This document shows positions 54,873 to 64,000 of a DNA stretch of 64,000 bases, piece after piece. A program made the position numbers and the translations under genes. Numbering within the stretch: position 1 is the stretch's first letter; each line of letters opens with the position of its first letter. The stretch spans positions 23,100 through 87,099 of the forward strand of contig NZ_QLAE01000021.1 in assembly GCF_005876855.1 (NCBI RefSeq). The letters run 5' to 3'. The DNA comes from Stutzerimonas nosocomialis. Lineage in GTDB: Bacteria > Pseudomonadota > Gammaproteobacteria > Pseudomonadales > Pseudomonadaceae. The notes under the pieces are model-generated. The model was given only the letters and a program-made list of their open reading frames with translations, was not told the DNA's origin and did no database searches.

Positions 54873-55559
54873 TCAAGCGGCTTCGAGGTAGGCCGAAAGG
54901 CTATTTCGGTCGAGGATCTCGATGCGCCGCTTGCGTACCGCGATCAGGCCCGCATCGGTGAGCCGGTGCAGGATGCGGGAAAAGGTTTCCGGCTGGATGC
55001 CCAGTTGCAAGGCAATCAGCCGCTTGGGCATGTCCAGGTCGATGACGCCGTTGTGGGTGCTTCCCAACTGCTGGAACAGGTAACGCACTACGCGCTGGCT
55101 GACATTGGACGAGGTCAGGTAGTCGATCTGATGCAACCGCTGGTTCAGGCGTGCGCTCAGGCTACCGAGCAGGCTCAGGCAGAGCTGCGGCTGTTCGTGC
55201 AGCAGGCGGCGGTAATGCTCGTGTTGCACGCGAAGCACCAGGCTTTCCTTGATGGCGGTGGCGTTGAGCGGGTGCTGCGGTACGTTGTCGAACAGCAGCG
55301 CCTCGGCGAAGGCCTCGCCGGGGCGGATGACCTCGATGACCTTTTCCTGACCGTCGGCGGTGACCCGGTGCAGCTTGATCTGGCCGCTGACCAGCAGGTG
55401 CAGGTGCTGCACCGCATCGCCCTGGCGGAACAGCGTAGCGCCCGCCGTCATTCGCCGGGCAGAGGCATGGGGGGCGATGCCCTGCAGCGCTTTTTCCGGC
55501 AGGCCGCGGAACAGGTAATGACAGCGCAGCGTGTGGAGCAGCATGGAATCGGCCAGCAT
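54873..55559 (-). CDS. Dnr-type CRP/FNR-family regulator (NO-responsive)
   Basis: Regulator of 228 residues: cyclic-nucleotide-like sensory domain (~20-135) and winged helix (~150-225). The recognition helix QPETFSRILHRL has the E-x-x-S-R residues that read TTGAT half-sites. There is no N-terminal Cys cluster, so it is not an oxygen-labile FNR/ANR but a Dnr-type protein; such proteins sense NO through heme. I set the start at 55559 (MLADSMLLHTLRCHYLF). By position beside narXL it probably corresponds to P. stutzeri dnrE, though the paralogue cannot be fixed from sequence alone. It should act on the FNR/DNR boxes in this window. Confidence 0.9.
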   Translation of the reverse strand: MLADSMLLHTLRCHYLFRGLPEKALQGIAPHASARRMTAGATLFRQGDAVQHLHLLVSGQIKLHRVTADGQEKVIEVIRPGEAFAEALLFDNVPQHPLNATAIKESLVLRVQHEHYRRLLHEQPQLCLSLLGSLSARLNQRLHQIDYLTSSNVSQRVVRYLFQQLGSTHNGVIDLDMPKRLIALQLGIQPETFSRILHRLTDAGLIAVRKRRIEILDRNSLSAYLEAA

Positions 55560-55624
55560 GAGTGTTCGTCCCTTTTGACGGATGCTAGGCCGCGCCACGC
55601 TGCTATCCCATTTCCCTTAAGCCA

Positions 55625-55643
55625 TACCTCTTCCGGAGGGGTG
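55625..55643 (-). promoter_or_regulatory. NarL-type heptamer pair upstream of the dnr gene
   Basis: TACCTCT matches the NarL heptamer TACYYMT exactly. After five bases AGGGGTG matches the inverse AKRRGTA in 6 of 7 positions. The pair lies 66-84 bp before the dnr ATG, suggesting nitrate control of the regulator (inference). Confidence 0.5.
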
Positions 55644-55651
55644 GTCCGGCC

Positions 55652-56437
55652 TCAGCGGGTACCGCCGGCCAGGCGTTCGTACTCGCGGGTCAGTTCTTCC
55701 ATCTTTTTCAGCAGCGATTCGCAGGTGGTGACGATGACGGTCGGCACGAAACGCGAGTCGTCCGCGAGGCTGAAGCCAGCCTGGGCGAAGCGCCATTGGC
55801 TGATGGCCTGGTCGAGCTGCTGCTTGATCCGTTCATTGTTCTGTGGCGCGGCCTGCAGCTCCTGCAGGCCACGGTCGAATTCCTCCACGGCGGCTTCGAA
55901 ATCGCCGCGCAGCGCGTTGTCCGGCAGTTTCCAGGCCATTGCCAGGTAGAGCATGGCGATGCGCTGGCTGAGCATGCGCTGCCGGCCGCTGCGGTTGACC
56001 AGCCGCGCGGCTTGGTTGCCGCTTTCCCGCTCGATTTCCTGCACCAGTGCTTCGCTCTGGACGAGGAAGCGGTCCGCAAGGCGCAGCACCTCGGCCGACT
56101 GCTGCCGGTCCGGGCGGGTCAGCGCCAGTTGCCGGTATTGCACCCAGGTCTGCCCGGCTTCGTCCAACGCCTTGCGGATGCTCGTGCCGAACGTGTAGTC
56201 GTTCAGGGCCTGGGTGTTTTCCTCGACGATGGCAATGCTGGCGTCCAGCTGACCGGCAGCCAGGTCAGGACGGGTTTCGGTGGCGATCATCAGATAGCTC
56301 TTGGCGATGCGCTGGCTGAGCATGCGCTGCATGCCGGCGCGGTTGACCGCTTCGGCATCGCCGATGGCGGCATGCCCGGGCAGATGGGTGAGCAGCAAGC
56401 CCATCGACAGCAAGAGCTGCGGAAGGTATCGGAGCAT
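55652..56437 (-). CDS. periplasmic protein with two PilJ/NarX-type sensory repeats
   Basis: Exported protein of 261 residues with a signal peptide (YLPQLLLSMGLLLTHLPGHA) and no further membrane helix or signalling domain. Two repeats carry almost the same motif: NRAGMQRMLSQRIAKSY (32-48) and NRSGRQRMLSQRIAMLY (148-164). This is the hallmark of the PilJ-type ligand-binding domain (PF13675 type), also found in the NarX periplasmic part. I set the start at 56437, where the signal peptide begins. It lies between narL and the dnr gene on the same strand, so it may bind nitrate or nitrite in the periplasm. Function unproven. Confidence 0.82.
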   Translation of the reverse strand: MLRYLPQLLLSMGLLLTHLPGHAAIGDAEAVNRAGMQRMLSQRIAKSYLMIATETRPDLAAGQLDASIAIVEENTQALNDYTFGTSIRKALDEAGQTWVQYRQLALTRPDRQQSAEVLRLADRFLVQSEALVQEIERESGNQAARLVNRSGRQRMLSQRIAMLYLAMAWKLPDNALRGDFEAAVEEFDRGLQELQAAPQNNERIKQQLDQAISQWRFAQAGFSLADDSRFVPTVIVTTCESLLKKMEELTREYERLAGGTR

Positions 56438-56549
56438 GGTGAGGGTCCTTGATCGTGGGGCGGCATGGCCGGTCACCGTTACGGGCGGTTCGGCCTGATC
56501 TGTCAGTCGCTGTGCGGAAAGGAATCGGCGCGATCCCGGAGTCGGGGCT

Positions 56550-56669
56550 TCAACGCCGGTGGCGTGCGGAACGCGCGTCGGTCGCTGTGGCATGGCCGTC
56601 AGGCTGACGGTGGTGCCGCATGCGACGCCTGCAGAGTGCGGGGTGGGGGACAGGCGAAAAGGCAGTCAT
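56550..56669 (-). CDS. possible 39-residue small protein or leader ORF
   Basis: Short ORF with a good ribosome site (GAGGAG, six bases before ATG 56669) located about 22 bases after the transcription start predicted from the DNR box upstream. The product (MTAFSPVPHPALCRRRMRHH...) is rich in Arg and His (about a third of residues), has one Cys and no membrane segment. No family recognised. It may be a real microprotein, a leader peptide or a chance ORF; the signals around it are its main support. Confidence 0.35.
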   Translation of the reverse strand: MTAFSPVPHPALCRRRMRHHRQPDGHATATDARSARHRR

Positions 56670-56724
56670 CGGGGGCTCCTCGTGGGTGTCGGAGCGAACG
56701 ATAGGCCGCCTGCCATCGTTTCCC

Positions 56725-56738
56725 TTGACGGCCGTCAA
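56725..56738 (-). promoter_or_regulatory. DNR-type box upstream of the small ORF and PilJ-domain gene
   Basis: TTGAC-GGCC-GTCAA is a perfectly symmetrical 14-base site (18 bases with the flanking CC/GG), with one change per half from TTGAT-N4-ATCAA. On the minus strand TATCGT at 56703-56698 lies within one base of the class II -10 position, so transcription should begin near 56691. Confidence 0.65.
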
Positions 56739-56835
56739 GGTGGCCAAAAAGCCCCCGGATTTCGTTTCAAAAGCCGCAATGCTCGCGCTTTTACGCGCCT
56801 GGGCAGCGCTCGCGGGGCCGTTTCTCGTCGCGAGC

Positions 56836-56866
56836 GACAAGCCGGCGAGGAGGGCGCCGGCCTGTC
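56836..56866 (-). terminator. hairpin after narL
   Basis: GACA-A-GCCGGCG, a seven-base loop, CGCCGGC-C-TGTC: an 11-bp stem with one mismatch, 12 bp after the narL stop. No U-tract follows, so termination may be partial. Confidence 0.5.
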
Positions 56867-56878
56867 GTTGGGAAGAGG

Positions 56879-57529
56879 TCAGGCCCGTGTCGGTTGGTTT
56901 TCCAGGATCCAGACGGCGGCTTCGACCCGCGAGCGCAGCCCCAGCTTGTGCAGCAGGTTCTTGACGTGGACCTTGACGGTACCCTCGGTGATGCCCAGCT
57001 TGCGCGCGATCATCTTGTTGCTCTGGCCCTTGGCGATCAGGCGCAGCACCTCTTTTTCGCGCTTGGTCAGGCTGGCGAACTGCACCTGGCCGGACGGCTT
57101 GGGACGCACGCGTATGGCTTCGGCGAGCACCTGGGTCAGCTCGGGATCGAGTGCCATCTTGCCGGTGGCGGCCGCGCGAATCTGCTCGACCAGCTGGTCG
57201 GCGTCCATGTCCTTGAGCAGATAACCGTCTGCGCCGTTGCGCAGGGCCTCGAGTACGTGGCTCTGTTCGTCCGAGACGGTGAACATGACGATGAAGGCGT
57301 CGACTTCGGCGTCGCGCAAACGCCGGGCGGTCTCCAGGCCGTCCATGCCGGGCATGTTCAGGTCCAGCAGGATCAGGTCGGGCTCCAGTTCGGCGGCCAG
57401 CCTGATGGCGTCCTCGCCGTTGCCGGCTTCGCCCACCGTTTCCAGGTCGTCTTCCAGATCCAGCAGGTCACGCAGACCGCGACGCATCATCGGGTGATCG
57501 TCCACCAGCAAGATGCGGGTGCTGGTCAT
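56879..57529 (-). CDS. narL: NarL, nitrate/nitrite response regulator
   Basis: Two-component regulator of 216 residues, the same length as E. coli NarL. The receiver has VDDHPMMRRGL near residue 9, the phospho-acceptor Asp in LILLDLNMPGMDGL and the switch Lys in GYLLKDMDADQ. A LuxR-type DNA-binding domain (LTKREKEVLRLIAKGQSNKM, ITEGTVKVHVKNLLHKLGL) ends it. The start at 57529 has AAGGA upstream, better than an ATG five codons before. The first 62 bp overlap the end of narX. Confidence 0.95.
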   Translation of the reverse strand: MTSTRILLVDDHPMMRRGLRDLLDLEDDLETVGEAGNGEDAIRLAAELEPDLILLDLNMPGMDGLETARRLRDAEVDAFIVMFTVSDEQSHVLEALRNGADGYLLKDMDADQLVEQIRAAATGKMALDPELTQVLAEAIRVRPKPSGQVQFASLTKREKEVLRLIAKGQSNKMIARKLGITEGTVKVHVKNLLHKLGLRSRVEAAVWILENQPTRA

Positions 57530-59393
57530 CGTTCCTTCGTTCATGCGGGACAGGCTCCAGTGGCAGGTGAATGTGACGATAGGCGGGCGGGAAACGCAGG
57601 TGCACCCGGGTGCCGCCGCCGGTGCGCGGGCCGATGGCGATGCTGCCATCCAGGCTGCTGGCGCGTTCGCGCAGGATGATCAGCCCGTAGTGGCCGTCGC
57701 GGCTTTCCTGGTGGCTGATGCCGATGCCGTCGTCTTCGATGCTGACGTCGATGGCGCCATTCGGGTCCTGGGTCAGCGTCAGCCAGCAGCAGCTGGCCTG
57801 GGCATGCCTGACCACGTTGCTCAGCGCCTCGCGGACGATCTGCAGGCAATGCACCTCTTCGTTGGGCGTCAACGGGCAGTGGTCGAGCTGGAAGTCGAGT
57901 TCGATCTGCAGGCCGGAGTTGGCGCTGAACTCGTCGAGGGTGGCCTGCACGGCTGGCTTGAGTCCCGGCTCGTCGACCTTGATGCGGAAGGTCGTCAGCA
58001 GCTCGCGCAACTGGCGATAGGCCGAGTTCAGGCCGCGGTCGATCTGCCGGACGCTGTCATCGAGCTGTGCCTTGCCGCTGTCCTTGTGCATCAGGCGCTT
58101 GAGCCGCGCCAGTTGCAGTTTCTGCGCCGACAGCGCCTGGGCCAGGGAGTCGTGCAGCTCGCGGGCGATCACCGCGCGCTCTTCCATCAGCGCCAGGCGC
58201 GCCTGCTTCTGGCCAAGACGTGCCAGGCTCAGGGAGGCGGCGAAGAGGTCCGCCAGGGTCGTCAGCAGCAGGGTCTGCCAGGGCTCCAGCGGCGTGCCCG
58301 GCACCAGCGCGACCCTCAGCAGGCCAAGCTCGTCCTGTCCGGAGCGCAGCTCGAAGCTGATCAGCTTTTCCCCGCCCGGCAGCGTGCCGGAGCGGTTCAC
58401 CGGGCACTGATCGCAGTCGGGCAGCCGGCAGTAGTCCGGGGGTTGTCGATCCCGCGAGGTCATCGCCGTGTGGCTACCGGCGTCGCTGTCGTGCTTCAGG
58501 CACAGCGAAATCTGTCCGGTGCCGAGCGCCTGCTGCACCTTGGGCAACAGCGAGCCCATCATCTGCGACGGGTCTTCCGGCTGGCTGTAGAGCATCTGCG
58601 CGCTGTTGAACAGCAATTGCAGGCTGGCGTTGCTGCGCGTCAGGGCAGCGGTCTTCTCGTCCACCTTCTGTTCCATCTGCGCATACAGGCTGGCCAGCTC
58701 CTGGCTCATCTGGTTGAGCGTGCGCGCCAGCAGGCTCAGCTCGGTATCGCCGGGAATCCGCACCTGGCCGCTGAAGTCGCCCTGGCCGATGTCCCGCGCC
58801 ATCCGGGTCAGGCTGCGCAGCGGCGTCGCCAGGTTGTTGTGCAGGCCGTAGACCAGCACGAAGGCAATCGCCACGATGAGGAACAGGGTTCCGACCTGCA
58901 GGGCGCGAATCACGCCCAGCGTGCCCTCCGAGGACTCCTGGAGCGTGCGCACGAGAACGTCCAGTTCATTGACGAAGGTGTGCGCCTCCCGACGGTACTC
59001 GTCCAGTTGCGCTGTCGGGCCGTCGAGCAGGGGGCGCATGCGCTGCTGCCAGTGCTGCACGACGTTGGCATGCAGTGCCGGCAGCGCGCTGTTGCGGTGG
59101 CGGTGCAGGGCCGAGCGCAGCGAAGGCGAATGCAGGGTGCTTTCCAGCGCGCCGATGTACTCCTCCAGGGCAGGCGGCGAGCCCTGCTCGGCGGCGAAGG
59201 CCAGGCGGTAGGTCTGCATCCGCAGGCTGCCGGCGTGGTTGATCGCCTCGGCGTCGCCCTCCAGGGCATCGGCCAGATACAGGCTGCCGAGCAGACTCAT
59301 GAGCGAGAACCCGATGATCACCACGAACGCCACGAGCGTGTTGAACACGATCGAGTGGCGGGTGGAGAGCTGCTCGCTTTCGGAAGGGGGCAT
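57468..59393 (-). CDS. narX: NarX, nitrate/nitrite sensor histidine kinase
   Basis: Membrane sensor kinase of 641 residues. TM1 (VFNTLVAFVVIIGFSLMSLL) and TM2 near residue 170 enclose a periplasmic domain with the P-box nitrate motif INHAGSLRMQTYRLAFA. A HAMP domain (LRSLTRMARDIGQGDFSGQV) follows, then a central module with a Cys cluster (CRLPDCDQCP), and a HPK7 kinase core: the His in VIARELHDSLAQALSAQK, the N-box REALSNVVRHAQA and DDGIGI. The last ~20 codons overlap narL in another frame. Divergent from narK. Confidence 0.95.
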   Translation of the reverse strand: MPPSESEQLSTRHSIVFNTLVAFVVIIGFSLMSLLGSLYLADALEGDAEAINHAGSLRMQTYRLAFAAEQGSPPALEEYIGALESTLHSPSLRSALHRHRNSALPALHANVVQHWQQRMRPLLDGPTAQLDEYRREAHTFVNELDVLVRTLQESSEGTLGVIRALQVGTLFLIVAIAFVLVYGLHNNLATPLRSLTRMARDIGQGDFSGQVRIPGDTELSLLARTLNQMSQELASLYAQMEQKVDEKTAALTRSNASLQLLFNSAQMLYSQPEDPSQMMGSLLPKVQQALGTGQISLCLKHDSDAGSHTAMTSRDRQPPDYCRLPDCDQCPVNRSGTLPGGEKLISFELRSGQDELGLLRVALVPGTPLEPWQTLLLTTLADLFAASLSLARLGQKQARLALMEERAVIARELHDSLAQALSAQKLQLARLKRLMHKDSGKAQLDDSVRQIDRGLNSAYRQLRELLTTFRIKVDEPGLKPAVQATLDEFSANSGLQIELDFQLDHCPLTPNEEVHCLQIVREALSNVVRHAQASCCWLTLTQDPNGAIDVSIEDDGIGISHQESRDGHYGLIILRERASSLDGSIAIGPRTGGGTRVHLRFPPAYRHIHLPLEPVPHERRNDDQHPHLAGGRSPDDASRSA

Positions 59394-63395: not shown

Positions 63396-64000
63396 ATGAG
63401 CCACTTGCTCGATCAATTGCGCTTCTTCAACAGGAAGCAGGGCGAGTTCGCCGACGGTCATGGCGAAACCCGCATCGAATCCCGCGACTGGGAGAACGTC
63501 TACCGCTCGCGCTGGCAGTACGACAAGATCGTGCGCTCCACCCATGGCGTGAACTGCACCGGGTCGTGCTCCTGGAAGATCTACGTGAAGAACGGCCTGA
63601 TCACCTGGGAGACCCAGCAGACCGACTACCCGCGTACCCGCAACGACCTGCCCAACCATGAGCCCCGCGGCTGCCCGCGAGGGGCCAGCTACAGCTGGTA
63701 CATCTACAGCGCCAACCGCCTGAAGTACCCCAAGGTGCGCAAGCCGCTGCTGAAACTGTGGCGCGAAGCGCGGCGCAACATGACGCCGGTGGACGCCTGG
63801 GCCAGCATCGTCGAGGACAAGGCCCGCGCCGAGTCCTACAAGAGCAAGCGCGGCATGGGCGGCTTCATCCGCTCCAGCTGGGACGAAGTCAACGAGATCA
63901 TCGCCGCGGCCAACGTCTACACCGTCAAGCGCTACGGCCCGGACCGCGTCATCGGCTTCTCGCCGATCCCGGCCATGTCGATGGTTTCCTACGCCGCCGG
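63396..64000 (+). CDS. narG: respiratory nitrate reductase alpha subunit NarG, 3' truncated by the window
   Basis: First 201 codons of the membrane-bound nitrate reductase catalytic subunit (about 1250 residues complete), which reduces nitrate to nitrite at a bis-MGD molybdenum site facing the cytoplasm. The FS0 iron-sulfur cluster ligands are present: His50, Cys54, Cys58 (STHGVNCTGSCSWK) and Cys93 (EPRGCPRGAS). GAGGAG precedes the ATG. narH, narJ and narI should follow outside the window. It is transcribed with the narK genes. Confidence 0.95.
   Translation, partial: MSHLLDQLRFFNRKQGEFADGHGETRIESRDWENVYRSRWQYDKIVRSTHGVNCTGSCSWKIYVKNGLITWETQQTDYPRTRNDLPNHEPRGCPRGASYSWYIYSANRLKYPKVRKPLLKLWREARRNMTPVDAWASIVEDKARAESYKSKRGMGGFIRSSWDEVNEIIAAANVYTVKRYGPDRVIGFSPIPAMSMVSYAA

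Follow-up and report, generated by a model that had tools for sequence, protein, structure and literature searches.

A free, exported double-PilJ protein beside narXL in Stutzerimonas nosocomialis, its promoter and the porin gene lost from its locus

A gene on the minus strand of a 64,000-nt stretch of the Stutzerimonas nosocomialis genome (contig NZ_QLAE01000021.1, positions 23,100 to 87,099; the window in what follows) encodes an exported protein with tandem PilJ repeats, which we call PILJ2. The gene runs from an ATG at 56437 to a stop at 55652 (55652..56437) and specifies 261 aa. Upstream on the same strand lie narL (56879..57535, minus; NF007935, 303.6 bits against a cut-off of 250) and narX (57468..59393, minus), a NarX/NarQ-type sensor kinase gene with one PilJ domain (PF13675), whose scores against the NarX and NarQ models stay under the cut-offs. 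The next gene downstream codes for a Crp/Fnr-type regulator (54873..55571, minus) at the place where, according to the accessible text of one report, Stutzerimonas carries dnrE (PMC13086519). An earlier note on this DNA had put PILJ2 between narL and a Dnr-type regulator, and that arrangement stands. The window's genome (G000; G and L numbers denote genomes and loci) is 4.76 Mb in 86 contigs, and the closest named relatives of the PILJ2 protein are from Stutzerimonas. At 63396-64000 of the window narG is broken off by the contig end, its remainder being on contig 42 of the same assembly.

The first 23 residues of PILJ2 resemble a signal peptide (by eye, without a dedicated predictor). A lipoprotein anchor was ruled out, the end of the signal having no lipobox cysteine (also by eye), and past residue 24 the protein has no strongly hydrophobic segment, with 19-residue Kyte-Doolittle means of at most 0.72. 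PF13675 (PilJ) matches the protein twice, with a whole-protein E of 8.5e-23 and 81 bits against a gathering cut-off of 26.6. Neither a membrane anchor, nor the kinase module of NarX/NarQ, nor the signaling domain of a chemoreceptor was found. The earlier description of an exported 261-residue protein, with two copies of a PilJ-like motif and with no anchor or output domain, is borne out in each part. Mechanical ORF calling starts the gene at 56593 to give 313 aa; we prefer the shorter form because the alignment of relatives supports its start. PILJ2 has no match to a known solute-binding-protein family of ABC importers in Pfam or NCBIfam; it could still work in the manner of such a binding protein.

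The N-box published for the chemoreceptor McpN reads [IVL]-[ND]-x-A-G-x-Q-R-M-L-[ST]-Q. The first repeat of PILJ2 matches it strictly (VNRAGMQRMLSQ, residues 31-42, 56312..56347, minus), with Arg38 as the equivalent of McpN Arg61. The second has one deviation, A to S (VNRSGRQRMLSQ, residues 147-158, 55964..55999, minus), and contains Arg154. The N-box residues rank among the most conserved positions in the alignment of relatives. The genome of the window has a second double-PilJ gene (contig 31, L037:8719-9492), 38% identical and with altered boxes, MNMAGLQRSLGQ and INRSGWNRVLTQ; the 18-kb stretch examined around it gives no match to the nar and nos genes of the window.

The structural model of PILJ2 was predicted with a pLDDT of 94. 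In that model the eight helices of the single chain superpose on the receptor region of NasR, the architecture of NIT-type receptors, and no NIT domain (PF08376) appears among the Pfam matches up to E 0.1. A plain Foldseek search with the model returned nothing at E 0.001 or below; PilJ headed its ranking (8wdf, TM 0.30), and NasR took the next two places (TM 0.63-0.68). The PilJ ligand-binding domain (PDB 8WDF, 7ZJR), long annotated as two PilJ domains, has a profile E of about 2e-7 to 4e-7 and was solved as one bimodular six-helix domain, in the part of the report available (PMC12632253). Such a fold is not supported for PILJ2, because PilJ chains align with repeat 1 only and NasR aligns over the full length.

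By sequence PILJ2 is closer to McpN, and by overall architecture to NasR, than to NarX. The ligand-binding domain of McpN (PA2788, PDB 6GCV) is its best sequence relative of known structure, and the N-box with the nitrate-binding arginine is common to both. McpN, however, is a membrane chemoreceptor with one PilJ domain per chain that forms a nitrate-stabilized dimer, whereas PILJ2 has two repeats in one soluble chain. The NIT domain of NasR, a nitrate-responsive antiterminator (PDB 4AKK), is only 7% identical; unlike NasR, PILJ2 is exported, has PilJ-type motifs and lacks ANTAR or any other output. In one relative (L192:7572-8921, genome G304) a single chain does join an ANTAR domain (2.7e-17) to a double PilJ (1.4e-19) with two N-box-like motifs; a weak receiver match (0.0098) is below cut-off, and the gene lies between nirB/nas and nrt genes. 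From its domains this protein is a NasR-like regulator in which PilJ repeats replace NIT. NarX and NarQ resemble PILJ2 in that PF13675 also occurs in the window's NarX and that NarQ structures match each PILJ2 repeat. They are, however, one-domain membrane kinases, their profile E values against PILJ2 are 0.85 (NarX) and 0.19 (NarQ), and the motif of the window's NarX (INHAGSLRMQTY) fails the N-box by eye. The model suggests that the two four-helix repeats pair up within the chain as an internal dimer, which would let one chain do what McpN needs two for. A single nitrate would then lie on the pseudo-two-fold axis, bound by Arg38 of the first repeat and Arg154 of the second.

Equating PILJ2 with AnvM (PA3880) of P. 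aeruginosa was considered and rejected. The AnvM gene lies directly downstream of narXL and is induced by low oxygen and nitrate, as far as the available text goes (PMC6650552); the protein has 131 aa with 11 cysteines and is mostly cytoplasmic, unlike PILJ2. The text of PMC13086519, PMC6152468 and PMC11526790 contains neither "PilJ" nor "type IV pil". In the open-licence literature, as far as its text was accessible, no description of a free exported double-PilJ protein was found, in line with the earlier note, which knew of no function for the stand-alone form; an older mention of the ORF in subscription papers is possible.

The promoter region contains a DNR/ANR/FNR-type box, TTGACGGCCGTCAA, at 56725..56738 (minus), which agrees with the consensus at 10/10 positions, and after a 21-nt spacer a putative -10, TATCGT (56698..56703, minus). 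A class II promoter would give a spacer of 22 nt; the one found is one short, and the claim of a DNR-like box with a -10 within one base of the class II position is thereby confirmed. The box is not a chance match, because all four 10/10 sites of the window are intergenic at denitrification genes: 40505 before nosR, 51165 between a cytochrome c gene and norQ, 56725 itself and 59618 between narX and narK1. A box of at least 9/10 occurs within 450 bp upstream of PILJ2 at 34/120 loci, against 4.8 expected; for the partner porin, introduced below, the 300 bp ahead of the gene contain one at 14/46, against 0.9 (expectations from single-base shuffles). The box followed by TATC[GT]T was found upstream of PILJ2 or the porin at 22 fetched loci of the genus, with a spacer of 21 nt in 21 of them and of 20 nt in L162; outside Stutzerimonas the -10 is variable or not evident. 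Lying near the class II distance and repeated in relatives, the box makes PILJ2 a putative member of the DNR/ANR regulon.

In the window 301 bp separate the box from the ATG, whereas 13 of 16 relatives of the genus (L008-L023) have 85-105 bp there; the distance differs because an intervening gene is gone. In G080 (the nearest relative, 82% identity), in G015 and in S. stutzeri 95A6, the interval between box and PILJ2 holds a gene of about 417 aa whose product matches PF13372 (alginate export, E 1.8e-9), a porin for which no relative of known structure was found. The window retains the porin promoter, ribosome site and start codon, after which about 1.2 kb is absent relative to G080. The two blastn blocks, 56603-56778 and 56359-56513, align with the two ends of the G080 stretch; between them 56514..56602 (minus) is unaligned where G080 has the missing porin sequence. 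A 39-codon ORF at 56550..56669 (minus) is the remnant: it begins at the porin start of the relatives, and the first block aligns with the promoter and first codons of the L038 porin. No porin match was found elsewhere in the genome of the window. In this lineage the porin body was lost, and the former porin promoter would now drive the receptor alone.

Among 17 genomes of the genus with PILJ2, the porin adjoins it in 3, lies elsewhere in 7 and is unmatched in 7, the window's genome being one of the last. Three of the seven separate places were fetched; in all three a perfect box stands at -70 of the porin, and PILJ2 has its own box. A wider view comes from the best 80 of 283 loci found in named genomes with the N-box motif itself. 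The porin is present at 25 of the 80 (20/27 in Pseudomonadaceae, 5/53 in others) and, where measured, is upstream of PILJ2 on the same strand with a gap of 46-216 bp; in L113 the order is reversed. In Bacteroidota (L096, L113), double-PilJ genes, two copies each, are likewise paired with a PF13372 porin. Being the commonest Pseudomonadaceae neighbor, at such short gaps on the same strand, the porin might seem to point to PILJ2 as a periplasmic helical protein that helps it fold or fixes it in place, with no nitrate bound. This is very improbable: PILJ2 is kept in the seven genus genomes without a porin match, the N-box residues are among the most conserved, and the ANTAR fusion does not fit.

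The porin also keeps the company of nitrate genes on its own. Sixteen porin places distant from PILJ2 were fetched, and in eight of them (L154-L156, L158-L161, L164) nitrate-type ABC transporter genes lie within three genes. Two of these assignments have scores over cut-off, L156 (permease TIGR01183, ATPase TIGR01184) and L155 (TIGR01184), the others being made by eye. The porin is near a narK-type gene in L163 and near narXL and narK in L157; no adjoining nitrate gene was seen in L151-L153, L162, L165 and L166. From this neighborhood the PF13372-type porin (L154-L161, L163, L164), often found by nitrate genes without PILJ2, is itself a candidate for a nitrate porin. No description of a nitrate porin of this type was found in the accessible open-licence literature.

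Counted as full-length copies of at least 42% identity, PILJ2 is present in 31 of 198 genomes of the family. The 32 genomes of the genus comprise 17 with full-length PILJ2, five with pieces only, one with a distant paralog only and nine with none; narG is full-length in 16. PILJ2 accompanies it: 14/16 narG-positive genomes have a full-length copy, against 3/16 narG-negative ones (Fisher 2.4e-4, kinship ignored). Of these three, G031 and G160 have no nar gene next to PILJ2, and in G110 the nar region is cut off inside narX; at this last locus (L145) narL, PILJ2 and the dnrE-type gene are kept and the nar region is gone from inside narX onward. G043 and G172 have narG and no PILJ2. All five genomes with pieces only are narG-negative, which, with the loss of the porin, would suit a view of PILJ2 in the window lineage as a functionless relic of a disrupted operon. 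We regard this as highly improbable, since the frame is open, the promoter pattern is kept, and dN/dS, 0.32 with the nearest relative and 0.19-0.55 in the seven pairs compared, is as under purifying selection. In Pseudomonadaceae a distant relative (about 25% identity; L137, L138, L139, L140, L142), with a signal-like start and no N-box motif, adjoins fadBA, and no PilJ match was obtained for the protein of L138; there the same fold may serve another role.

The earlier note had suggested a soluble periplasmic nitrate/nitrite receptor that feeds NarX, a ligand buffer or a chaperone. The soluble, exported, receptor-type domain, likely nitrate-binding, survives; feeding NarX as a general function is rejected. 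In 12 of the 31 family genomes with PILJ2 there is no NarX match beyond the kinase core (G009, G031, G039, G050, G077, G085, G093, G095, G110, G160, G163 and G194; G039 is 78% complete), and narG is absent from the same 12. NirB is over cut-off in 30 of the 31 genomes, the exception, G065, having narG, and NapA is over cut-off in 21.

Linkage to narXL or dnr proved real and local: it is found in Stutzerimonas and several other Pseudomonadaceae, and it arose more than once. The refuting condition named in the earlier note, a lack of conserved linkage, thus holds only in part. Of the 80 loci, 66 were proposed for the tree set; L060 and L128 failed a check on the stretch and L058 and L074 were left out, giving 62 plus the window, or 63 proteins. 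The window copy clusters with other Stutzerimonas copies. Eight rows are narXL- or dnrE-linked (three to dnrE only) and fall inside a largely porin-linked Pseudomonadaceae clade, with three changes of state, at least two of them forced by well-supported branches. The nar linkage therefore looks like repeated recruitment; exchange between copies within one genome (L069, L072) may add to the pattern. The finding is real and reaches further than the earlier note saw, and the NarX link is not its center.

The main rival to a role in acquisition is that of a co-receptor: PILJ2 loaded with nitrate would bind to a sensor in the membrane, be it NarX, NarQ or a chemoreceptor, and tune its signaling, in the manner of TorT docking on TorS. 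The receptor-type fold, the narXL/dnrE linkage in at least two lineages, and the presence among the structural matches of the TorS sensor domain, solved with periplasmic TorT, speak for it. Full-length NarX is nevertheless missing from the 12 genomes named above, where other sensors are possible, and a NarX-type gene occurs at only 12 of the 80 loci, four of them weak. We consider the co-receptor unlikely.

Beyond the family PILJ2 meets other nitrate pathways. The neighbors of the 80 loci were scanned in flanks of up to 8 kb a side, with query proteins partly from loci already seen and dnrE counted. A nitrate gene or dnrE was found at 22 (19 without those having dnrE only), the porin at 25 and either at 36, against none at 20 arbitrary places in eleven Pseudomonadaceae genomes (Fisher 0.0055 for the 22/80); outside the Pseudomonadaceae the count was 12/53, four being weak NarX-like matches (26-28% identity). 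Five loci are strong cases. Three of them, L102, L103 and L118, read porin-PILJ2-nirB-nirD with a NarK/NasA-type transporter; the porins of the first two have no Pfam match and owe the label to 33% identity to the L038 porin. In L089 napG-H-B-C is followed by PILJ2, and in L108 napF-D-A diverges from it. Family matches confirmed NapG, NapH and NapC (L089), NirB and NirD (L102), and NapA and NapF (L108). A class-wide sample gave matches at 1e-12 in 20/219 genomes. Nine were taken as clear double forms (G000, G015, G259, G260, G295, G304, G322, G328, G334), the copy of G328 being interrupted and that of G260 distant; G307 (one match spanning both repeats, but a frame of 712 aa) and G392, G408 and G414 (two neighboring one-repeat matches) were kept apart. 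In G322 PILJ2 follows a nap cluster, 2.4 kb beyond its napC; it is about 10.5 kb from napA in G334 and among nirB, nas and nrt genes in G304. In G260 a porin is flanked by two PILJ2-type genes. On the short contigs of G259, G295 and G328 neither a nitrate gene nor a porin is nearby. NirB was present in 6/7 double-PilJ genomes of this sample, against 5/13 genomes without a match, which is suggestive only. A search of plasmid records found PILJ2 in two Cupriavidus records only, one of which (L194) shows no nitrate or porin neighbor in the surrounding stretch.

Taken by its parts, PILJ2 is quite probably a periplasmic nitrate-binding protein, and its two repeats rather likely share one nitrate site. 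Its role is perhaps acquisition or buffering rather than signaling. The picture that we tentatively favor as a whole is of a periplasmic nitrate binder that evolved with a porin and is lent to whichever nitrate pathway is present. In relatives the PILJ2 gene would come second in an operon, after that of the porin, and the promoter here is of the ANR/DNR type; the porin would pass nitrate across the outer membrane, and PILJ2 would hold it in the periplasm or hand it on to NarK/Nar, Nap or Nrt/Nas.

Several observations weigh against this picture. The strict published N-box is fitted by repeat 1 in 32 of the 63 proteins, and rarely by repeat 2 (4/63); moreover, motif conservation in the 80 loci is partly built in, because the loci were found by that motif. 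The porin is not essential, since seven of 17 genus genomes with PILJ2 have no match to it, and at 44 of the 80 loci the flanks scanned contain no porin and no nitrate gene. Intact PILJ2 is kept in three narG-negative genomes. Four candidate binding proteins near the porin have no NCBIfam match up to 1e-20. According to the accessible parts of two reports, P. aeruginosa PilJ, with its pair of annotated PilJ domains, fails to bind nitrate (PMC6381276), and the solved PilJ domain has another fold (PMC12632253). Nitrate may also be too abundant in denitrifying cells for a binding protein to matter. The ligand itself may be questioned: nitrite, chlorate or a similar small anion could be bound instead of nitrate, or several could, as the deviation in repeat 2 and the binding of nitrite by NarX and NarQ would allow. 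McpN, the closest solved sequence relative, is nitrate-specific, however (both points from the available text of PMC6381276), and another ligand is rather improbable.

It is possible, and we say so with more reserve than for the picture favored above, that these proteins form a widespread family, so far undescribed, of exported nitrate receptors made of a single chain. In them PilJ repeats would build the architecture of the NasR module, and with the porin they would make a portable acquisition module that serves nar, nap and nas systems, also in Bacteroidota. PILJ2 further provides a testable link in evolution between PilJ homodimers, as in McpN, and the one-chain receptor of NasR. To our knowledge, nitrate entry into the Gram-negative periplasm is generally treated as unassisted, by free diffusion. 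If the reading is true, there would be a pore and a periplasmic binding protein for nitrate where free diffusion is assumed. The recurrence of pore and receptor with Nar, Nap and Nas would then add an extra step to nitrate uptake and denitrification, and PILJ2 would be a compact one-chain nitrate-binding scaffold on which sensors could be built.
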